A stretch of 28,391 bases of DNA from a virus. Positions 671 to 28,369 of this stretch are shown here, in pieces. The position numbers were made by a program, and so were the translations under genes. The stretch is taken from the IMG/VR virus record IMGVR_UViG_3300030380_005517, positions 1 to 28,391 of that record. The stretch is one strand, 5' to 3'. Positions within the stretch are counted from its first letter, which is position 1. Each line of letters begins with the position of its first letter. A model generated the notes under the pieces. That model worked only from the letters and a program-made list of their open reading frames with translations. It ran no database searches and had not been told where the DNA came from.

Positions 671-1058
671 CTTGGTTCTTATTATATAAAAAATATTCGT
701 CTCCGCACCACAAATGCAAACCAAGTCCCAGGTTCATTGCAGCACGTTTAAAAGCATCAGACTCAGCATGCTTTAAATTTGCACCATTGGTCCCTTGGTT
801 ATGTTCAACATCACCGGATCCCTGAACCTTGATGTCTTTACCACCAACACGAACAGTAAGAGTACCAATGCAGCCCGTAAGAGTTCCATCCTTTTGATAA
901 ATCTCTCGATCAATAGACCAATCATAGAACCCAACAACATCCAACAGACGCTGACGGATTACTCCATGGTTTACATAGGATGCGTTGGCCTTTCCTGGTT
1001 TTTGTCTTATGTACTTATCAGGGAACGGAGTAGCCAGTTCAATTAATTCATTTTCCAT
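633..1058 (-). CDS. Rad52/22-family single-strand annealing protein
   Basis: 141 residues, short like phage Rad52-type annealing proteins. Family hallmarks are the central VGFYDWSIDRE segment, a strand pair around GTLTVRVGGKDIKVQGSGD, and the diagnostic helix HAESDAFKRAAMNLGLGLHLW (split here: ESDAFKRAAMNLG, then LGLHLW). These proteins anneal complementary single strands during phage recombination, replication and repair. The ATG at 1058 follows AAAGGA about 7 bases away and overlaps the 3' end of the excisionase gene by 11 bases, so the two are probably translated together. Its position beside integrase and excisionase marks an early or recombination module. No exonuclease partner is seen in the window. 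Confidence 0.8.
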   Translation of the reverse strand: MENELIELATPFPDKYIRQKPGKANASYVNHGVIRQRLLDVVGFYDWSIDREIYQKDGTLTGCIGTLTVRVGGKDIKVQGSGDVEHNQGTNGANLKHAESDAFKRAAMNLGLGLHLWCGDEYFLYNKNQDVTTQEVTEPSS

Positions 1059-1224
1059 TTATTATCCTTTCAAGGTCGTCCTTTTTTACTAAAATTTTAC
1101 GAACACCAGGCAATTCAAATCTAGGCAGCCTGCCATCAGATATCATGTCATAAACGGTAGTTTTACTGACTTTTAAGAGTTTTACAATCTCATCAACGGT
1201 AAGTAGATTATCTAAGTTGGTCAA
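1048..1224 (-). CDS. xis: Excisionase / MerR-type helix-turn-helix protein
   Basis: 58 residues from the TTG at 1224. The sequence LLTVDEIVKLLKVSKTTVYD is the classic winged helix-turn-helix start of the DNA-binding excisionase family, followed by DGRLPRFELPGVRKILVKKDDLERI, the wing and final helix. I chose TTG at 1224 because GGGGG precedes it by 6 bases; a GTG at 1242 would add six residues but has no ribosome site. It overlaps the stop of the upstream small gene by 17 bases. Next to a tyrosine integrase, the likely role is a recombination directionality factor that bends attachment-site DNA for excision. A small transcriptional regulator of the MerR-like class is the alternative. Confidence 0.75.
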   Translation of the reverse strand: MTNLDNLLTVDEIVKLLKVSKTTVYDMISDGRLPRFELPGVRKILVKKDDLERIINGK

Positions 1225-1480
1225 CAGATACCCCCATGACACCTACATCATGCAAGGGTAAGACGTACTGCTGGCCTTCAAATATGAAACAAACACGGTC
1301 TACTCGGTCACGAACGTAACACTTGATAAATGTAGAATTTTTGTACTCGATAACTTCCTGACTTGGATGCTTTGAGTAAATTAGATTTATTTTATCGCCC
1401 CGTTGATAGCCAAAAGAGCGGAGTGCATGTCCCGTACGTACAAAAGGGCTTAAATTAGAACTAATTTTTTTGATTGTCAT
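1208..1480 (-). CDS. Hypothetical small protein between integrase and excisionase
   Basis: 90 residues, not recognised. It is basic at the N-terminus (MTIKKISSN) and predicted mostly beta, with an RVCFIFEGQQYVLPLHDVGV segment. There is no signal peptide, membrane segment or metal motif. The ATG at 1480 is the only good start. Its nearest Shine-Dalgarno-like GGAG is 13 bases upstream and sits in the distal arm of the hairpin at 1490-1535, so translation could be controlled by that structure. Its place between integrase and excisionase suggests a role in integration control or lysogeny, which is inference only. Confidence 0.6.
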   Translation of the reverse strand: MTIKKISSNLSPFVRTGHALRSFGYQRGDKINLIYSKHPSQEVIEYKNSTFIKCYVRDRVDRVCFIFEGQQYVLPLHDVGVMGVSVDQLR

Positions 1481-1559: not shown

Positions 1560-2756
1560 CTACTCTTTTATTTCATCAGCCCAGGCAACCTGCCCAGCTT
1601 TCAAATCCTCCTCATTGATATGAACATAAGTACGCAAGAACGTCTCAGGGGTTTGACCCAAGAGAGTTGCTGACGCAGCAATTGGAACGTTTGCACGGTG
1701 CAAACCAGTAGCAACAGTATGACGAGTCGCATGGAGTCCCATGTAGCGGATCCCTGCCTGCTTACAATAACGCTTGAATGCAGACGTATAGGAATCAGGC
1801 ACAACAGCTCGGCCATTACCACGATGAAATAACCATCCATCATTTGACCAAATGTCCCGGTCCTCATTGTTTGAGTTCCAGGCACGACCGTAGACCTCGC
1901 CTGAGTGGCACCGTTCCAGGTGCCTTTTTAACTCAACAGTTGATGCCACGTCAAGCGGCACTAAGCGGTTGTGGTTCTTTTTTGAGCTGGAACCGACAAA
2001 GTCTACGGAACGGCCTCCGTTTTTGACACTTTCAACTGACTTGTTAATCGAGATGATTGCAGTAGTTCCGTCAGCTGAATAACTTATATCGTCCAGCCGG
2101 ATCCCTGCAAGTTCGCCTCGCCTCATGCCTGTGGTCAAGGCAAGATAAAAGAAAAAATAATCTCTGCGGATAGAGTCATTCTCTTTTATAAAAGCCAAGA
2201 TGGCACGAACCTCATCAACTGAGTAAGCGTCACGATTGGTTTTAGGAATTTTGACCCTGGCCGTGGCTTTCTTTTTCATTGGATTGCTGCCCATTGCGTT
2301 AGTTTCAACAGCAAGCTCAAATAAACCACTCAAGGTCATTTGCATACGAGCAAGATACCCGTCAGACAAACCCTCGGCCTTTTTCAGTTCAAGCCAACGG
2401 TTTAACTGCACCGGCTCAATCTGTGTCATTTTTAAGTGACCCAGGATGTCAAGCCAGTGGTTATTTAGGTACATTTCGTACTTTTTAAGAGTCGATGGAC
2501 GTTCCACCTTTACACGACAAGCAGGCAGCCAAACATTAAGAGCAAACTGCCTAAAAGTATGTTTATCAACAACATGCTTGATAGTTCCTTTATTTACACC
2601 ATCAAGATACTCGGCAGCAGCAGCCTGGGCTTCGCCTTTTGTTTTATAAGTTCCGGACCAAACAGTCTTATTTTTTTGGTCGATTACTTCACGAACAGAT
2701 GCCTGATATTTAACACCAGTCTTGGAAGTACGTTTGCGGATAGTTGACCAAGCCAT
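1560..2756 (-). CDS. int: Tyrosine recombinase (phage integrase)
   Basis: 398 residues from the ATG at 2756. An N-terminal arm-binding domain (about 1-60, GVKYQASVREV then SGTYKTKGEAQAAAAEYL) is followed by a SAM-like core-binding domain (about 65-170) and the catalytic domain. Catalytic residues visible are Arg212 in TTGMRRGELAG, Lys260 region, His342-x2-Arg345 in LHATRHTVATG, and the nucleophile Tyr377 in FLRTYVHIN. The usual histidine after LG (LGH) is Gln368 here. Its role is site-specific integration and excision of the phage genome, so the phage is temperate. A start at 2777 is possible, but 2756 overlaps the preceding stop (TAATG) with GGGGAG 9 bases upstream, the usual coupled arrangement here. 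It is unusual only in being the fourth gene of a leftward operon of small genes. Confidence 0.93.
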   Translation of the reverse strand: MAWSTIRKRTSKTGVKYQASVREVIDQKNKTVWSGTYKTKGEAQAAAAEYLDGVNKGTIKHVVDKHTFRQFALNVWLPACRVKVERPSTLKKYEMYLNNHWLDILGHLKMTQIEPVQLNRWLELKKAEGLSDGYLARMQMTLSGLFELAVETNAMGSNPMKKKATARVKIPKTNRDAYSVDEVRAILAFIKENDSIRRDYFFFYLALTTGMRRGELAGIRLDDISYSADGTTAIISINKSVESVKNGGRSVDFVGSSSKKNHNRLVPLDVASTVELKRHLERCHSGEVYGRAWNSNNEDRDIWSNDGWLFHRGNGRAVVPDSYTSAFKRYCKQAGIRYMGLHATRHTVATGLHRANVPIAASATLLGQTPETFLRTYVHINEEDLKAGQVAWADEIKE

Positions 2757-3088
2757 TATGAACGCTCCCCAGGACAAAGAACATGTCGCCAGGACTCAAC
2801 ACGGTCCTGCGGACTAAACAAGTCCTCGATGTCCTCAAAACCATAGCCACACTTACAACAAGTCTCAGGACCAGCAACAGTACGGCTTTTACCATTTGAG
2901 AACCACTCAAAGAACCAGCCGTCAACTTCCTCGATTGCTGAATTCAATTTGAAATTACCAGGGTCACAAGGAACAGGCAGACAGCCAGGTGTGCATTCCT
3001 CATCATGAAACCAGTCGCCGTTTCCAGTTTGGTCATAAAGAGCAGCTCCGTGCTTACATTTAGGCAATTTAATAACTTCCCAGGACAT
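2756..3088 (-). CDS. Hypothetical cysteine-rich protein upstream of integrase
   Basis: 110 residues, not recognised. Eight cysteines occur as C11, the CTPGCLPVPC group, CCKC and one near the C-terminus, with KCKHGAALYD and ECTPGCLPVPCD early and ETCCKCGYGFEDIEDLF late. This suggests a small zinc-binding fold or two half ribbons. Aromatic residues are frequent (WFFEWF). Start ATG at 3088 overlaps the stop of the upstream gene (TAATG), and its own stop overlaps the integrase start in the same way, so all three are probably translated in series. A metal-binding accessory of the integration operon is a guess. Confidence 0.65.
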   Translation of the reverse strand: MSWEVIKLPKCKHGAALYDQTGNGDWFHDEECTPGCLPVPCDPGNFKLNSAIEEVDGWFFEWFSNGKSRTVAGPETCCKCGYGFEDIEDLFSPQDRVESWRHVLCPGERS

Positions 3089-3504
3089 TATGAAACCTCC
3101 TCAAACTCAACAAGACGGTAAACCTGAGCCACACGGTCAGAATTTTCTTGTCGGATTTTGTACTCAATAGCTTCAGCAAGAATTTCAAAAGTTGCAGAAC
3201 CAGCAAAAGCACCAGCATGCCTCTCATGGTCTTGCGGAAACCAATATTTTACTACAAAGTTAAGACCATTAGAACGGTCCCAGGCTTCCTGACAAGCCTC
3301 AGCAATTACACCACGCTCATGACTTGAGAGCTTTACATTATGCGGTAAAGAGTCCTCAATGCTTCCCATAAGAACATTTTTAGCTTTGCCGTTTTCTAGA
3401 TCGCTAAGAACTTCCTTAGCAATTGCTTGATATTCCCAAACAGAGAGCCTGACGTTATCAGGCATAGTGCTCATGATTGGATAAGTTAAATTATAAGCGT
3501 CCAT
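3088..3504 (-). CDS. Hypothetical protein with internal duplication
   Basis: 138 residues, not recognised. Two adjacent segments align: MPDNVRLSVWEYQAIAKE (about 14-31) and LPHNVKLSSHERGVIAEA (about 53-70), sharing P-x-N-V-(R/K)-L-S, an I-A-(K/E) helix and a trailing N-G. It looks like a tandem repeat of a small alpha-helical motif of roughly 39 residues, followed by a helical C-terminal part (ATFEILAEAIEYKIRQEN). Start ATG at 3504 is 3 bases after the zinc-ribbon stop, with GGGGGTAATTA before it. It belongs to the integrase operon; the role is unknown. Confidence 0.65.
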   Translation of the reverse strand: MDAYNLTYPIMSTMPDNVRLSVWEYQAIAKEVLSDLENGKAKNVLMGSIEDSLPHNVKLSSHERGVIAEACQEAWDRSNGLNFVVKYWFPQDHERHAGAFAGSATFEILAEAIEYKIRQENSDRVAQVYRLVEFEEVS

Positions 3505-3507
3505 TAA

Positions 3508-3639
3508 TTACCCCCACTCATTTAATAAATTATGACAATGATGGCAGAAAACCATCTCGGCATATTCGTGGATCGGTTGCTCCAGTAAATTTTTTGAACC
3601 GCAGCTCAAACAATTTACGCTATCTTTTAATTTAGGCAT
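3508..3639 (-). CDS. 43-residue zinc-ribbon protein, first gene of the integration module
   Basis: 43 residues (MPKLKDSVNCLSCGSKN start). Two Cys pairs, C10-x2-C13 and C32-x2-C35 (FCHHCHN), make a treble-clef or zinc-ribbon knuckle with a spacer of 18. The start is well supported: AAGGAG 8 bases before ATG at 3639. It is the first gene after the repeat-rich region at 3640-3956 and 3 bases ahead of the next gene, so it likely heads the integrase transcript. Possible roles are DNA binding or a protein-protein adaptor; nothing more specific can be seen. Confidence 0.65.
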   Translation of the reverse strand: MPKLKDSVNCLSCGSKNLLEQPIHEYAEMVFCHHCHNLLNEWG

Positions 3640-3704
3640 TTTGTTATCTCCTTTGTTTTTAACCATGACTAATAAGACCATAAATCCAGGGCATTTGCAA
3701 CTCG

Positions 3705-3726
3705 TTTTGGCTCAGTTTTGGCTCAG
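3705..3726. repeat. Tandem pair TTTTGGCTCAG, left flank of the repeat region
   Basis: Two exact 11-base units at 3705-3715 and 3716-3726, followed by TTTC. The same dimer with A changed to C recurs in the same orientation at 3930-3950. Paired direct repeats on both sides of a central structure resemble the arm-type binding sites of phage integrases. Confidence 0.7.
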
Positions 3727-3737
3727 TTTCATCCGGA

Positions 3738-3743
3738 ATTATA
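3738..3743 (-). promoter_or_regulatory. Perfect TATAAT -10 hexamer abutting the repeat array
   Basis: On the minus strand the sequence is CCTATAATTCCGG, a consensus -10 box pointing toward the zinc-ribbon and integrase genes about 100 bases away. The -35 position, 17 bases upstream (3761-3766), falls inside the GGAAAC repeats and reads TTTCCG, far from TTGACA. A promoter here would therefore need an activator, or be covered by a repressor bound to the repeats. This is an inference from one good hexamer and its location. Confidence 0.45.
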
Positions 3744-3827
3744 GGAAACCACGGAAACCACGGAAACTACGGAAACCAAATGTCGGGCTTTTCTTTCCGT
3801 TATTTCCGTTATTTCCGCCATTTCCGC
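3744..3827. repeat. Phased inverted array: four GGAAA units facing four TTTCC units, 9-base period
   Basis: Left half: GGAAACCAC at 3744, GGAAACCAC at 3753, GGAAACTAC at 3762 and GGAAACC at 3771. Right half: TTTCCGTTA at 3794, TTTCCGTTA at 3803, TTTCCGCCA at 3812 and TTTCCGC at 3821. The halves are mirror-symmetric around 3784/3785: each GGAAA pairs exactly with a TTTCC, while the 4-base spacers only partly pair. TCCGGAAT occurs as a direct repeat just outside each half (3732-3739 and 3832-3839, exactly 100 bases apart). The array looks like iterons or a cooperative operator, or the centre of an attachment site. Long palindromes are rarely kept without function. Confidence 0.8.
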
Positions 3828-3929
3828 TGCGTCCGGAATACCTGGGGAGAGTAGGACACCGCCGGCCTTTCGGCAAGAACTGCAATAAAAGCAGGGTTTG
3901 CTGGCCTTAACCGGGGCTGAATCAGACGA

Positions 3930-3950
3930 TTTGGCTCCGTTTTGGCTCCG
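3930..3950. repeat. Tandem pair TTTGGCTCCG, right flank of the repeat region
   Basis: TTTGGCTCCG at 3930-3939 and TTTTGGCTCCG at 3940-3950, again followed by TTTC. It ends 6 bases from the stop codon of the tail gene. It differs from the left pair only by C for A in each unit. Between the central array and this pair are two small hairpins: GCCG..CGGC at 3861-3874, whose minus-strand reading includes GCC-GAAA-GGC, and CTGC..GCAG at about 3880-3894. Confidence 0.7.
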
Positions 3951-3956
3951 TTTCAG

Positions 3957-5183
3957 CTAATAACCCAATCGGTCATCATTTAAAGAACCAAACACCGTGT
4001 CATTTAGCCTGAAAAATGCTGCATTTACAGCATCAGATACGTTAAAACGAAGTACAAAATCATCGGGAGTTATTGCAAAGTTAACACCATCAATTACAGA
4101 TTGCCTTGAAATTTGAGATCCCTCACCAGGTGGTGTTATTTCAATTTTTATTGCACTTGAGAGCTCCAGGCCCAAAACGGTTAATTGATTTGCATCAGAC
4201 AAAGTGTCAATATTTAAGACCATTTGACTAAATCTAGGCAAAGCATCCTTGAATTTACCAAGCAAAAACGTTGCAGCAAGAGCAACATCTGAATCAGATG
4301 AATTTAATAAATTATTTCTTTCCAGATAACGCTTTAAATATTTACCTTGACTAGCCGTGTCTTGAGCAGTTTGTTGAGAACCACCTTCCCTAGTTAAATT
4401 TATAACGTTAAAAATTAAGTCATCATCAACAGGTTGATTGACCTCCAAGTAAGGAATGTCAGAACCATCATCAGAAAATATAGTCGTGGTGGCTGTTGGA
4501 AATGAACTATGTCGATTTTTAAAGTTTAGAGTGCCGTCAGAACCAGCAAAAAAACTGCCATTTTCAGACTTTTCAATTTCTTGGATCAACGATAAAACGT
4601 TAGTTGATTTGTTTATAGATTGCATTGTTGAGTTTCCGGTTTCAATAGAAGTGGTACCTGAATAAGCAACTTGAGCATTTGACAATATAGAACTAACCAT
4701 AGAACCTGAATCAGTTGAGCTAACAGCCAAACTAGTGGTTTCAATGTTTGCAAGTTTTACAAAAGCATCTGAACAAGAAACTTGAACCTTTGATGTTGTT
4801 TTATTTGGATATTGAGTAACCCAATCAGTTACAAAACCACGGTAAAGATTAGTGTGGCTAGATTGTCCAGCAACAAGACAATCAACAATTACCTCAATCA
4901 ATGGCTCAATGCCAGGATAATATGGACCGTTAACATTAGCCGGATTAAAACGTCCATCAGCTGAATTTTCTAACTCAATCGTTGCAGAACCTGAAACAAA
5001 TGCATTCAAATCACGAGAACGACCTCTCGATATTGATACGGATTGAACATAACTAGTCACGTCAGTAAATGTTGAAGTACCGCCTAAAACGTTGTTGGAA
5101 GTTAATCGACCACGGATCGGGTCATCAAGAGTAAAAGTATTTGGAGTAAAGCCAAACCTTACACGAAGTGTAGGTGCAGCCAT
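3957..5183 (-). CDS. Minor tail / tail hub-like protein
   Basis: 408 residues, placed directly after the tape measure, where siphophages encode distal tail and hub proteins. The N-terminus (TLRVRFGF..DVTSYVQSVSISRGRSRDL) and the segment SATIELENSADGRFNPAN..YPGIEPLIEVIV are typical of actinophage minor tail proteins. A middle region (SMVSSILSNAQVAYS; EIEKSENGSFFAGSDGTLNFKNR) resembles the gp27 or tail-hub fold used by baseplate hubs. It would form the tail tip and DNA exit channel. Start ATG at 5183 overlaps the tape measure stop by one base. No further tail-tip genes follow: the fibres are encoded far upstream. The family call is from pattern recognition; the hub role is inferred. Confidence 0.7.
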   Translation of the reverse strand: MAAPTLRVRFGFTPNTFTLDDPIRGRLTSNNVLGGTSTFTDVTSYVQSVSISRGRSRDLNAFVSGSATIELENSADGRFNPANVNGPYYPGIEPLIEVIVDCLVAGQSSHTNLYRGFVTDWVTQYPNKTTSKVQVSCSDAFVKLANIETTSLAVSSTDSGSMVSSILSNAQVAYSGTTSIETGNSTMQSINKSTNVLSLIQEIEKSENGSFFAGSDGTLNFKNRHSSFPTATTTIFSDDGSDIPYLEVNQPVDDDLIFNVINLTREGGSQQTAQDTASQGKYLKRYLERNNLLNSSDSDVALAATFLLGKFKDALPRFSQMVLNIDTLSDANQLTVLGLELSSAIKIEITPPGEGSQISRQSVIDGVNFAITPDDFVLRFNVSDAVNAAFFRLNDTVFGSLNDDRLGY

Positions 5184-9698: not shown

Positions 9699-9929
9699 TC
9701 AATCTCTAAAGCCGATAGTTAAAAGCCAAAGAGTTATCGAAATAATAATCGCTATTCCAACTATATCCTTAGCGGCTCCAGTTAACGTGAGCCAAGCAAT
9801 AAAAAAACCAAGAAGTGTAAAAGTTTGAGCCAGGGTCTCTTTTAATATTGACTTAAGCCAATTAAAAGACTTTCCTAACCAGGCAAACTTAAAAACACCT
9901 TTAGTTATATTTATTATTTTTTTAATCAT
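9699..9929 (-). CDS. Two-helix membrane protein, holin-like
   Basis: 76 residues: a basic amphipathic start (MIKKIINITKGVFKFAWLGK), then two strongly hydrophobic segments (TFTLLGFFIAWLTL; DIVGIAIIISITLWLLTIGF) with a charged C-terminal end. Size and topology suit a second holin or antiholin. Ribosome site AGGAGGAG is directly upstream, and its bases are also the last codons of the 694-residue gene (4-base ATGA overlap). It sits between that gene and a transglycosylase, alongside a separate r1t-type holin at 12059-12262, so it may be an antiholin or a membrane partner of the large secreted protein. Confidence 0.6.
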   Translation of the reverse strand: MIKKIINITKGVFKFAWLGKSFNWLKSILKETLAQTFTLLGFFIAWLTLTGAAKDIVGIAIIISITLWLLTIGFRD

Positions 9930-12010
9930 AATCTCCTCCTATATGGTACCACACTGGCCGATACGATTTGAGATGCAATAATTACAGGAACGACAACCTC
10001 CTGGCTTTTTTCTTTTTGCTGCAACGTCATACCTTGGTCTAGTGCAGAAAAACTAATTTCTTGGAAATCTACCTCAAAAATAACGGTCGGATTTGCAAGA
10101 AACTCCTCTGTTTGATATTCAACAACAGCATCGGCAACGTTGTAATCCTCAACGTCCGAGTTCTCTTCAGACGCAGCACGCTCAACATAAGAATCTACAG
10201 CAGCTGCAACAGCCTCATCCTCTTGAACATTTGCAGCCAAAACAGCAACATCGTCTGAATCATCAAGCCCCAGGACTTCCGCAACAGTCTCAACTTGCTC
10301 CTCATCAAGCTCCTCAACATCATCGATCGCTGACTCAACAACAGCAGCAACAACCGTGACCTGCTCATCAGATAACTCTTCCAGGCCAACCTCAACAACG
10401 TCCTCAATAATTTCAACTTTGGCCTCAACCTCCAGGGTTTCAACATAAGTGTCAACAACAGCCTCCACTTGGTCCTCAGACAAGTCCTCAATTATTTCAT
10501 CAGGAACTTCAGGGATCTCATCATTTGCAGCCTCAATAACCTCAACAAGCTCCTCAACAGCTTGCTCTACCTCTATTATTTCCTCCTCAGATAAAATTAT
10601 TTCTTTTTCTTTTATTTCCTCAACAATTTCTGTCACAGGCTCAACATCCAAAACTTCGTCCTCTTCCTCATCAAAAATTTCAATTACAGGTGGTGGTTCC
10701 TCTTCCTTCTCTTTTTCATCAACAATTACAATTACAATGTCATCGTCAAACTCTAAATCCACTTCAAAATCATCATCGTCAACTTCAAAAACATCAAAGT
10801 CGACATTTTCCTGGATAAAAATTATTTGATCAATAAGCTCCTCAATTTCCTCAAGCTCTTCATCTGATAACTCTTCAATAGGACCATCAAAAAATGTTCC
10901 GTTACTTTCTAAGTCTTTTATTATTTGGTCCTCTTTTTCCTCAAGTTCATCAAGCTCCTCATCGATTGGTTCAAGGTCATCAAGCTCCTCATCGATTGGT
11001 TCATCCAGGTCCAAAATATCATCTTGCATGTTTTCATCAAAGTCATCTGAGTCCAAAATATCAGTTTGCAAAGTTTCATCATTTTCAAGATCCTCAAAAA
11101 TATCAATATCACCACAATCGCCACGGGCCACTTGTGCGTCAGTTGCCTCACAGCCCAGCTCTTCAAGGTTTTTTGCTCTTTCTTTCTCTCTTTCCACCGT
11201 GCCGTCAGCGATCTCACTCTCAGTAAATTCAACCTCCTCGCCACCAATTATGATCACCTCGACAATTTCCTCAGGTTCCGGTTCAGGTTCAGGGATCACC
11301 ACAACAGGTGCAGGTGGCAAAGTTGTAGTCGTAGTTGTTGTAGTCGTAGTTGTTGTTGTTGGTGGAACCGTTGTAGTTGTTGTTGTTGGTGGAACCGTTG
11401 TCGTTGTTGTGGTTGTTGTTGTAGTAGGTGGAACTGTTGTCGTTGTAGTTGAAGTTGTTGTAGTGGTTGTTGTTGTCGTTGTTGTTGTAGTTGTTGTGGT
11501 GCTTGAAGTTGTTGTACTGCTTGAAGTTGTTGTGGTTGTGACCGGAGTGCCATGAGTCCAAAAAATATCATCGACAATAACATAGTCATCATAAACAACA
11601 GCAACAGAAGTGATATATTTACCAGTTACAGAATGAGATATATCCTCGTACATTGTGGCAACGTTTGCATTACTTTGAGCTGAATAGTTTTCAGTTGCAG
11701 AAGTTCCATCGGAATAGTTCCAAGTTACGGTATACGGATCGTTAACGCAGCCACTTAAAAACCCAGCAGCAGATACGTCAGACTCCGGGAATGTCATAGT
11801 TATAGTCCCATCAGCCGCAGATTGCATATTAAAATGAACAGCCTGACTCGTTGAACCGCAATCGCCACTGTGAATATCTAATCTATTCCAGGAAACACTA
11901 CCATAGTCAAAACTTAAACTAGTTTGATTTTGACCATCAGCAGCAATACGCTCATAGGTTGTGGTTTCACTAGCAAGGACCGGAAATGGAAAAACCAGGA
12001 ATAACACCAA
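9926..12010 (-). CDS. Large secreted Thr-rich and highly acidic surface-type protein
   Basis: 694 residues from TTG at 12010. A signal peptide (LVLFLVFPFPVLASE, cut after VLA) is followed by a beta-sandwich, carbohydrate-binding-like domain (about 15-150; SGDCGSTSQAVHFNM, YITSVAVVYDDYVIVDDIFW), a threonine and VPP linker (about 150-235), a very Glu/Asp-rich region (about 240-480), helical repeats of the form LSDEQVTVVAAVVESA / LDEEQVETVAEVLG (about 490-610), and a hydrophobic stretch VVVPVIIASQIVSASVV before the terminal YRRRL. Upstream in-frame codons would encode a basic stretch (AYKFNSLIRIG) that makes a better signal peptide, but no ATG, GTG or TTG precedes 12010, so the true start may be a rare codon. 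A cell-surface or lysis-linked protein is inferred. It is not a known endolysin. Confidence 0.75.
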   Translation of the reverse strand: MVLFLVFPFPVLASETTTYERIAADGQNQTSLSFDYGSVSWNRLDIHSGDCGSTSQAVHFNMQSAADGTITMTFPESDVSAAGFLSGCVNDPYTVTWNYSDGTSATENYSAQSNANVATMYEDISHSVTGKYITSVAVVYDDYVIVDDIFWTHGTPVTTTTTSSSTTTSSTTTTTTTTTTTTTTTTSTTTTTVPPTTTTTTTTTTVPPTTTTTTVPPTTTTTTTTTTTTTLPPAPVVVIPEPEPEPEEIVEVIIIGGEEVEFTESEIADGTVEREKERAKNLEELGCEATDAQVARGDCGDIDIFEDLENDETLQTDILDSDDFDENMQDDILDLDEPIDEELDDLEPIDEELDELEEKEDQIIKDLESNGTFFDGPIEELSDEELEEIEELIDQIIFIQENVDFDVFEVDDDDFEVDLEFDDDIVIVIVDEKEKEEEPPPVIEIFDEEEDEVLDVEPVTEIVEEIKEKEIILSEEEIIEVEQAVEELVEVIEAANDEIPEVPDEIIEDLSEDQVEAVVDTYVETLEVEAKVEIIEDVVEVGLEELSDEQVTVVAAVVESAIDDVEELDEEQVETVAEVLGLDDSDDVAVLAANVQEDEAVAAAVDSYVERAASEENSDVEDYNVADAVVEYQTEEFLANPTVIFEVDFQEISFSALDQGMTLQQKEKSQEVVVPVIIASQIVSASVVPYRRRL
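10947..11003. repeat. Exact 27-base direct repeat, 30-base period, in the acidic region
   Basis: Positions 10947-10973 and 10977-11003 are identical over 27 bases, separated by three. They encode two copies of EPIDEELD in the large secreted protein. This indicates recent in-frame duplication within the acidic domain. Confidence 0.85.
11305..11555. repeat. Threonine-codon microsatellite (GTT/GTA/GTC on the plus strand)
   Basis: About 250 bases made almost wholly of ACN codons on the coding strand, broken by GTTCCACC-type VPP codons. It encodes the linker T(n)VPPT(n) of the secreted protein. Synonymous codons are mixed but trinucleotide runs remain, so length changes by slippage would stay in frame. 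Confidence 0.85.
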
Positions 12011-26422: not shown

Positions 26423-26934
26423 TACTCTTCCTCCAGGAGTTCTAAAATCCTTGGATCCGTAGCCGTGTCCTCGCTTGAATTTAAAAGATCGTTTATTGAT
26501 GCCAAAGAAGTTGCAGCCTCACCAACCGCAATCCCTAGCCTTTGACGAGCCATCGGTGTAAGGCCTAACTCGTTCTCGAGTCTAAGTATTTGAGTCTCGA
26601 GTTTCAGAGCATGCTCCGCCAAGGGATTGGTACGAATTTGTCCTGTTGAACCACGAACCACTAACGACTTTTTAACAACTTTCATGACCCTGGAATATTG
26701 ATCGTACATTCCAAACAATCTCTCAACAGCAGGAACGTCAACCTCTTGAGCAACACCAGCAACATCAGAATCCCAGTAAGTGTACCAACGGTCCCTAGTT
26801 TGTTTTAACCAGCCACGAGTTGGCTTCGGTGGTTCATTCTTTAGTTCAGTAGAACCTGAAATAATCTGCAACTCACGTGAACGATGGCCCTGGGCCTCAC
26901 CCGCTGGCTTAGGAAGTGGGCCTCTTTTACCCAC
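26422..26934 (-). CDS. terS: Terminase small subunit (P27-like)
   Basis: 170 residues from GTG at 26934 (VGKRGPLPKPAGEAQGHRSR). It begins with the GKRGPLPKP motif of P27-family small terminases, then EPPKPTRGWLKQTRDRWYTY and VPAVERLFGMYDQYSRVMKV, and ends with LGLTPMARQRLGIAVGEAAT, all typical. It binds the packaging site and loads the large subunit. GGAG is 6 bases before the GTG. An upstream ATG at 27027 would add 31 residues that only shadow the methyltransferase 3' end. It overlaps that gene by 8 bases. Confidence 0.85.
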   Translation of the reverse strand: MGKRGPLPKPAGEAQGHRSRELQIISGSTELKNEPPKPTRGWLKQTRDRWYTYWDSDVAGVAQEVDVPAVERLFGMYDQYSRVMKVVKKSLVVRGSTGQIRTNPLAEHALKLETQILRLENELGLTPMARQRLGIAVGEAATSLASINDLLNSSEDTATDPRILELLEEE

Positions 26935-28369
26935 CAGCAGCTCCAGGTAAATGCTTAACAGTTTCATCCGGGTAAGCATTTTTAAATCTATCAACAATGA
27001 CATCAACATAAGCAGGGTCAAGTTCAATCGTGTAACACTTTCTATTTAAAGCATGAGCAGCAATAAGCGTGCTGCCGGATCCCGCAAAAGGGTCCAGGAC
27101 TAAATCACCAGGCTTGGATGAATAAAGTATGGCCTTAGAGAGCAGCTCCAGGGGTTTCATGGTCGGATGATCCTTATTATTCCTAGGTTTTGGAACATTC
27201 CACACATTAGATGGCCCAAAAACCATCTCATTGACGTTAAAAGTTCTCGAATCGTCGTACATTTCCGAATTAGAACTGCCAAACAATCCAAGATTAAGCT
27301 CCGGGTTCTTTGTTTTCTTTAGTTCACGCAGCATTTCATCATCCTCATCGTCTAATTCAACAGTTAAATTAAAACCACCATCAAACAAATCAAGCTGAGC
27401 CTCACCAGCTTTATTATTTTTAAACTCATCCCAAACATTTGATAGGTCTCGTCGACCAATAAAATAATGTGACTTACCCTCAGGCCAACCATACATGATT
27501 GGCTCAAACCTCCAATGAAAATCAGATCGGCCCAAGACAAATGAATCCTTGACCCATATGATATTTGAGGAGTAGTGCATTTTTGCAGCAGACCAGGCTT
27601 GAAAAACAGAACTTGTCGCAGCAGTTGCATAAAACATATAAACAGCACCATCAGTAAAAGCATGAATCATAGACAAAGCATCATAAAGAAAACTTGTAAA
27701 AGAGTCCTCGGCCATTTTATCATTTTCAATTGAACGACCGTGCGTGTCTTTGTAGTCAACGTTGTACGGTGGGTCAGTTAAGCACAAAGCAGCCTGGCCC
27801 TGGATACCGTAATAACTTGATGGCTCAGTAGCAGAACCACAAACAACATAGTGGTCACCAAGCCTCCAAACATCACCTAGCTTAGTGACGGGATCCGCGG
27901 GGGCATCAATAATTTGCCCTTCAGATGGCAGCTCCGGCTCGATCCCTAAAAGTTTTTCAAGGTCAGCTAAGTCATAACCAGTCGCGTCAAGCATCGAATC
28001 ATCAACCGCAACTCTTTCTAACATTTCAGCCAAAGCCTTATCGTCGTAAGTTCCAAGGTCAGCTGTTCTATTATCGGCCAAAGCAAAAGCCTCAGATACA
28101 GAAACATCCTCATCAACAATTGATGCAGCAATATGAGTCCAACCTAACTGAATCGCAGCAAGCAATTGATGATTGCCTGAAATAACAATTAAAGAGTCGT
28201 CACTTTCACGTCTTGCAACGATTGGCTTACGCTGGCCAAACTTCTCGTAGCTTTTAACAACAGCTTGGACATTTCCTCGTCTTGGATTACCAGGCAAAGC
28301 CTTAAACAGCCCGATTGGTGTAGCCAAGTTCTCTAGATCCTTAATTATTCCGTGTTTTTTGTTAGCCAT
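26927..28369 (-). CDS. ParB-domain / DNA methyltransferase fusion
   Basis: 480 residues. A ParB/Srx-like N-terminal domain (about 1-120; PIVARRESDDSLIVISGNHQ, then ALADNRTADLGTYD) is followed by an amino-methyltransferase domain with LTDPPYNVDYKD (motif IV, about 193-204), NNKDHPTMKPLELLSKAI, and LVLDPFAGSGSTLIAAHALN (motif I). The order IV before I marks a beta-class N6-adenine or N4-cytosine methylase. A long insert (about 290-390, acidic) separates the motifs. Such fusions are common in phages just before terminase genes and probably modify phage DNA against host restriction. ATG at 28369 follows GGGGGG 6 bases upstream. No cognate nuclease is seen in the window. Confidence 0.9.
   Translation of the reverse strand: MANKKHGIIKDLENLATPIGLFKALPGNPRRGNVQAVVKSYEKFGQRKPIVARRESDDSLIVISGNHQLLAAIQLGWTHIAASIVDEDVSVSEAFALADNRTADLGTYDDKALAEMLERVAVDDSMLDATGYDLADLEKLLGIEPELPSEGQIIDAPADPVTKLGDVWRLGDHYVVCGSATEPSSYYGIQGQAALCLTDPPYNVDYKDTHGRSIENDKMAEDSFTSFLYDALSMIHAFTDGAVYMFYATAATSSVFQAWSAAKMHYSSNIIWVKDSFVLGRSDFHWRFEPIMYGWPEGKSHYFIGRRDLSNVWDEFKNNKAGEAQLDLFDGGFNLTVELDDEDDEMLRELKKTKNPELNLGLFGSSNSEMYDDSRTFNVNEMVFGPSNVWNVPKPRNNKDHPTMKPLELLSKAILYSSKPGDLVLDPFAGSGSTLIAAHALNRKCYTIELDPAYVDVIVDRFKNAYPDETVKHLPGAAGG

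Follow-up and report, generated by a model that had tools for sequence, protein, structure and literature searches.

Organization of the locus

The window (the whole stretch of viral DNA analysed here, 28,391 nucleotides long) contains a 250-bp region of phased and tandem repeats, positions 3705-3954, that separates a tail-like gene from a leftward operon encoding a tyrosine integrase (Table 1). The profile matches of this integrase were scored on the listed open reading frame (ORF) 1560-2777, and its arm-binding Pfam domain fell below cut-off (9.5e-4). The window's terminase finds its best-listed matches mostly among actinophages, at 31-32% identity, and the attachment region itself had no match when compared with annotated phages.

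Table 1. Features of the attachment region and the neighbouring genes (window coordinates; names follow the attachment-site reading)
Feature	Position	Strand	Basis or remark
HTH_17 excisionase-family protein, 64 aa as listed	1048..1242	-	start uncertain, conserved part 1048-1215; Pfam HTH_17 5.1e-14
Tyrosine integrase, 398 aa	1560..2756	-	Pfam Phage_integrase 7.9e-20, SAM-like 7.4e-9; PHROG integrase 6.3e-56; alignment
110-aa ORF directly upstream of int, no assigned function	2756..3088	-	in most relatives
138-aa ORF of int operon, no assigned function	3088..3504	-	in several relatives
57-aa ORF, weakly zinc-ribbon-like, first ORF of leftward operon	3508..3681	-	Pfam zinc ribbon 0.035, under cut-off
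P-arm pair, two tandem 11-bp arm-type sites TTTTGGCTCAG	3705..3726	+	repeats; position in relatives; match to G024 attR
Left iteron array, five 9-bp units starting GGAA (3735, 3744, 3753, 3762, 3771)	3735..3779	+	
TATAAT toward int operon, possible -10 box overlapped by iteron	3738..3743	-	sequence; no promoter in scan
Right iteron array, five 9-bp units, TCC at 3796, 3805, 3814, 3823, 3832, facing left array	3794..3838	-	
attP core	3844..3866	+	GGGAGAGTAGGACAC (3845-3859) and GCCG (3861-3864) match 5S rRNA 3′ end of the Actinomarina order; mismatch at 3860
P′-arm pair ATTTGGCTCCG, TTTTGGCTCCG	3929..3950	+	TTTGGC begins +85 from the core's first G (3845)
Tail-like gene, stop codon 6 bp from P′ arms (right attP border)	3957..5183	-	PHROG tail protein 6.9e-7

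An earlier note, made from the sequence alone, had described these repeats and proposed an attachment site or an early control region, and every repeat that it listed is present where it was placed. GGAAA recurs at 3744, 3753, 3762 and 3771, and TTTCC at 3794, 3803, 3812 and 3821. The exact 9-base phase claimed for this array is right; the count of four plus four is not, because GGAAT at 3735 and TCC at 3832 extend the phase to five plus five. Copies of TCCGGAAT do lie 100 bases apart (3732 and 3832), but they are the two outermost units of the 9-base arrays, and we have dropped the pair as a separate feature. Tandem 11-mers occur in the same orientation at both ends, as claimed, with TTTTGGCTCAG at 3705 and 3716 and ATTTGGCTCCG and TTTTGGCTCCG at 3929 and 3940. 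What had been missed is the key feature of the region, a stretch of 5S rRNA 3′ end at 3845-3864, between the arrays and the right arms. The phasing is not expected by chance: in none of 20,000 dinucleotide-preserving shuffles of 3728-3842 did at least four GGAAA fall in one 9-base phase together with at least four TTTCC in one phase. This anatomy, in which arm-type repeats flank a core on both sides as tandem 11-mers at conserved distances, is shown directly.

The core corresponds to the 3′ end of the host-order 5S rRNA gene

Between the right array and the right 11-mers lies GGGGAGAGTAGGACACCGCCGGCC (3844-3867), which we take to be the 3′ end of a 5S rRNA gene. It shares 15 nucleotides (3845-3859) with the 5S rRNA 3′ end of Candidatus Actinomarina relatives, followed by one mismatch and then four further shared nucleotides, and 16 nucleotides from 3844 match the attR copies of cassettes found in host-order genomes (below). 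When GGGGAGAGTAGGACACYRCCGRC was used to scan 84,980 genomes, there was a single match, in locus L021 of a Ca. Actinomarina single-cell genome (G001); the core joined to the phage's own CCTTT continuation had no match in genome contigs. Among 42 genomes of the host order, the 5S end pattern was found in 18, and the remaining 24 gave no match. Rfam reported nothing over cut-off for window positions 3400-4200, probably because only the last 20-odd nucleotides of the 5S rRNA are present.

The identity of the core with a host 5S end is thus shown, with one exception: position 3860 is C in the window and T in all 18 host-order genomes with a 5S end. The true host may therefore belong to another lineage, or the crossover may lie to the left of 3860. 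Helix I carries GGTGGTG in each of the 18 host-order 5S genes, and of its first eight pairs seven or eight are retained with the 3′ ends that the phage supplies; it is possible that common descent alone accounts for this pairing. There is no clear terminator on the right side of the window's core to replace that of the host (z -0.58), where the sole plus-strand candidate, at 3912-3939, overlaps the right arms. A terminator-like hairpin was seen by eye after the core in one viral relative (L005) and in both arm-flanked cassettes.

Arm-core-arm geometry is conserved among viral relatives

An integrase search of viral contigs returned eight relatives with 78-97% identity, one of them partial; further core-bearing records came from searches with the core (L010, L012 and L017) and with the arms (L048). 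In all, 12 viral records besides the window carry the core GGGAGAGTAG(G/A)ACAC, and each of the ten records searched whole has one copy. At the attachment site L005-L007 are identical, and L002 differs little from L009, as does L003 from L012, so the comparison covers about nine distinct sites, the window included.

We measured the geometry as the distance between the first G of GGGAGAG in the core and TTTGGC in the first arm. On the right side, the best arm match lies at +85 in the window and in all 12 records, and the tandem pattern of the right arms is exact in 9 of these 13 (there are two mismatches in L003, L004, L008 and L012). The left arms, measurable in 10 of the 12 records (L012 and L048 end short of that point), lie at -139 in the window, L002, L009 and L010, at -148 in L005-L007, and at -149 in L003, L004, L008 and L017. 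The TCC of the right array is found at -49, -40, -31, -22 and -13 from the core in nine of ten attachment sites, and L005 has four of the five. Both the 9-base phase and its register to the core are therefore kept in related phages, a comparison that the earlier note had proposed, and this conservation is shown.

Around the right arms some records carry further repeats. Tandem repeats of about 61 bp (AAACCCCAACGTTTATAGGCTTTT...) extend from the right attP arms in L010 (1697-2575), and similar repeats lie beside the right arms of L017 and L048; the window has none there. In addition, an arm 24-mer matched viral records L049-L053, which are without this core. Three tandem TTTTGGCTCAC 11-mers occur in L049 (49-263), 109 bp past a tRNA-Leu end, close to one terminus of this 41-kb viral record; because these 11-mers run in the opposite orientation, this array is merely a lead. 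Possibly, the arm motif seen there serves other integrases too.

Arm-flanked insertions follow the 5S gene in host-order genomes

Ca. Actinomarinales have a single rRNA operon in which 5S is the last gene (PMC7771536). Locus L021 of genome G001 contains a complete 5S rRNA gene (Rfam 4e-23) and most of the 23S, cut by the end of the locus, and the match to GGGGAGAGTAGGACACYRCCGRC is a second copy of the 5S end that lies 2,094 bp downstream of the complete gene. The intervening unit begins with a terminator-like hairpin, right-type arms at +85 and a gene for a 598-aa AIPR protein (Pfam 3.2e-34; PADLOC AbiU 1.3e-17); it continues with the left-type arms (at -149), the two arrays and the core, and another hairpin follows. 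Two more copies of the 5S end divide the insertion into tandem units of 2,094, 517 and 334 bp. This cassette lacks an integrase and retains both arrays in register to the core. An empty site is available for comparison: the relative G020 runs through the point at which G001 has about 2.9 kb extra, with flanks that are 96-97% identical.

A second genome, G024, has an arm-flanked insertion of 799 bp after 5S, in which lies a 202-aa HIRAN-like gene (Pfam 7.1e-5, below cut-off; a weak PADLOC match to PDC-M03B, 1.7e-4). Its left border, attR, is an exact 50-nucleotide match to window positions 3705-3754, after which the sequence passes directly to the core. This cassette lacks most of the array, so the array is not needed for staying integrated. 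The displaced core is altered, with GCAAAC for GCCGAC, as expected for a displaced copy without function. In both cassettes the gene is tightly fitted between the arms: TATAAT lies 8 nt (G001) and 6 nt (G024) before the start codon, and the stop codon is 0 nt and 4 nt, respectively, from the left arms.

Matching attL and attR around insertions directly after 5S are thus shown in two host-order genomes. Both surround integrase-less cassettes with the same arms, and no such junctions were seen for the phage itself or its relatives. A search of genomes for a segment shared with 3705-3954, along the lines suggested in the earlier note, accordingly yielded the 5S-end core and attachment junctions but no lysogen of this phage. 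With an integrase profile (A1), none of the 42 host-order genomes matched, in a search without a positive control. The arm pattern matched 4 of the 42 genomes, and the same pattern written backwards, as a control, matched 1; the arm matches in G023 and G029 lie in apparent coding sequences without a core, and we judged them to be chance.

Among the 18 genomes with a 5S end, second copies of that end were found only in G001, G016 and G024; the other 15 had none within the stretch examined, and for G032 that stretch was just 574 bp. In G016 (L079, 1500-2744), two armless one-gene units follow 5S, each ending in a 5S-end copy and a terminator; their products are a T5orf172 protein (PADLOC PDC-S57, 1.2e-67) and a 146-aa protein without an assigned function. 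In G033 (L087, 314-3619), a 1101-aa NB-ARC gene without a PADLOC match lies directly after the 5S terminator; having no second 5S copy, it was not counted as a cassette. Among the cassette genes, matches to defence models are mixed (good for AIPR and PDC-S57, weak for HIRAN and none for two genes), and "defence hotspot" is a lead rather than a count. Two queries made from cassette genes each gave six pattern-matching stretches in viral contigs, none of which was confirmed. Cassettes with similar tandem arms were not found in 20 tRNA-gene regions (14 in G001 and two each in G031, G035 and G024), a sample that does not cover every tRNA or genome; the tRNA-end copies in these regions are neighbouring tRNA genes, apart from one degenerate tRNA-Val end in L068.

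An excisionase-family protein is the candidate ligand of the arrays

Beyond int, the window encodes a small HTH_17 protein that scores 45.6 bits against TIGR01764 excise (cut-off 28.8). Relatives of this protein are encoded past int in L003, L004, L005/L007 and L008; L002, whose contig ends there, has part of one. Its predicted structure (mean pLDDT 85.6) aligns best with BldC-DNA complexes (Z 9.4 and 9.2) and then with Pukovnik Xis (Z 8.4) and RdfS (Z 7.5). Other searches were less telling: no Foldseek match of the model reached 0.001 (E-values were 0.014 and above), a sequence-only PDB search with the single protein returned no excisionase, and a profile search gave just a weak match to Pukovnik Xis (E 0.33).

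BldC assembles head to tail on direct repeats of 9 bp, whose consensus is AATTXXXX(C) (PMC5859096, PMC11963761). Four AATT at nine-base steps are present in the left array of L004 and L008; the window has just one. Because the protein belongs to an excisionase family, has a predicted BldC-like fold and would meet repeats with the 9-bp spacing that BldC binds, we read the arrays as excisionase sites. That the nine-base arrays bind this protein is likely; it is inferred from family, fold and spacing, without binding data.

A model for integration at 5S

These results make it very likely (roughly 0.88) that the 250-bp region is the attP of a temperate marine actinophage whose integration target is the 5S rRNA 3′ end; recombination and excisionase binding are the inferred parts of this statement. 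The arm-core-arm reading offered in the earlier note is supported by the host 5S segment, the attL and attR of two genomes, and the conserved arm geometry. The 5S target in Actinomarina relatives is a likely one: it is well supported for the shared attachment system and is not shown for a lysogen of this phage.

We propose that the N-terminal domain of the integrase binds the tandem 11-bp arm sites and the catalytic domain binds the core, which would be recombined with the 3′ end of the host 5S rRNA gene; integrase action and the exact crossover are inferred. Because the phage core supplies a 5S 3′ end, the host 5S is expected to remain whole, with the displaced copy at the far end of the insertion. 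The two converging five-unit arrays lie between the P arms and the core, on what would be the attR side, where the HTH_17 protein is predicted to assemble head to tail and drive excision. The same assembly may also control the int operon, given a possible -10 box overlapped by the outermost unit, although such promoter control is likewise only inferred.

A bolder reading, which we regard as a working hypothesis that the present data leave slightly short of even odds, is that the 5S 3′ end of Ca. Actinomarina relatives is an integration hotspot for one-gene cassettes, some of them anti-phage. Each cassette would have a complete phage-type attP and its own promoter without an integrase, and temperate phages such as this one would move it in trans with their integrase and excisionase; this movement is inferred.

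Alternative explanations

In the most serious rival, a repressor binds the arrays as the operators of a region that controls early genes or the int operon, with attachment confined to the arms and core. In its favour, ATTATA at 3738 (TATAAT on the minus strand) abuts or overlaps the outermost left unit, 57 bp ahead of the operon's first ORF, and winged-helix excisionases such as RdfS can double as regulators (PMC11963761). However, a consensus promoter scan reported no promoter at this TATAAT (minus strand, 3738-3743), the array register is fixed to the core, and the G001 cassette, with no int operon to regulate, still has both arrays in register. We therefore consider this rival unlikely. As a second role, early control, the other half of what had first been proposed for the region, is not excluded, given that the array is overlapped by a TATAAT directed toward the int operon; no independent evidence speaks for it.

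Could the inverted arrays instead form one RNA hairpin, a terminator or attenuator between the tail genes and the int operon? Minus-strand RNA of 3728-3842 does fold at -52.1 kcal/mol (z -6.9), but any site present in two opposite copies must pair. The spacers do not pair, and over ten attachment sites folded the minus-strand z ranges from -5.66 to -0.79 (L005 -0.79, L017 -2.22) while the 9-bp phase of the DNA is kept, although no formal covariation test was made. Because of the unpaired spacers and the weak hairpin predicted in some relatives, protein-binding iterons, as first suggested, are favoured over a single RNA stem, which is very unlikely. An equally poor prospect is that the arrays are replication-origin iterons or a packaging site within attP, so that the cassettes would be replicated or packaged by the phage. 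The retention of iteron-like arrays in an integrase-less cassette speaks for this, but there was no replication initiator match among the seven int-operon ORFs scanned, and all five units keep a constant register to the core. Finally, the 9-base GGA phasing might be coding, since both halves read as a collagen-like Gly-X-Y peptide in facing directions; every 9-bp unit beginning GGA reads so, however, and with in-frame stops in L004, among others, and no shared start codon, this explanation is all but excluded.

Comparison with known systems

Phage lambda and mycobacteriophage L5 exemplify the attP geometry of heterobivalent tyrosine integrases. The attachment-site reading of the present locus shares with them paired arms on both sides of the core, putative P-side sites of excisionase type, an adjacent int and junctions of attL and attR type in host-order genomes, seen there around integrase-less cassettes; it differs in that the target is the 5S rRNA 3′ end, rather than a tRNA or tmRNA, and in that ten convergent 9-bp units fill the P arm. 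The candidate ligand of these units resembles BldC and the HTH_17 excisionases Pukovnik Xis and RdfS, all small winged-helix proteins, and BldC acts on 9-bp direct repeats (PMC5859096, PMC11963761). However, BldC is a developmental regulator, and here two arrays face one another, with binding inferred.

The cassettes recall CIMEs, cis-mobilizable elements which are without an integrase but retain attL and attR, and which accrete in tandem at a gene end (PMC5704250). Those in G001 and G024 likewise keep attL and attR without an integrase, and tandem accretion is seen as three units in G001 and two armless units in G016; in contrast, CIMEs are decayed conjugative or mobilizable elements (PMC5704250), and the cassettes have phage attachment sites with single genes packed between the arms. 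In Ca. Actinomarinales, prophages have been described as rare, with one in tRNA-Val, and cassettes at tRNA genes have been reported without an integrase (PMC7771536). These too are small, with a duplicated RNA-gene end, and occur in the same organisms, but their targets are tRNAs, no integrase is named, and 5S is mentioned merely as one of the single-copy rRNA operon genes (PMC7771536, sections bearing on it). Integron gene cassettes have a folded attC site and rely on an IntI integrase; the attachment sites seen here are arm-core-arm. Phage satellites have been catalogued elsewhere (PMC11389934).

We found no report of a 5S rRNA attB in the open-access literature searched; subscription journals were largely outside this search, and priority is unproven. 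PMC5446998 and PMC8813620 concern integration targets other than 5S rRNA. Beyond adding an integration target not found in print in that literature, the shared attachment site ties uncultured marine phages of one group to a host order and is a clean system in which to ask how an excisionase might recognize ten phased sites. It also suggests a testable mechanism by which some of the smallest free-living bacterial genomes could gain small defence genes; if the bolder reading is true, streamlined ocean bacteria would have, in these cassettes, a counterpart of integron cassettes that is run by phages.

Other features of the window

Elsewhere in the window, a gene for a Rad52/Erf-like single-strand annealing protein (633-1058) follows the excisionase-like gene, and a DNA methylase gene (N6_N4_Mtase; 26927-28369) lies at the window end. 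Low-complexity, GTT-rich repeats occupy 11322-11540, within a 694-aa ORF (9926-12010).
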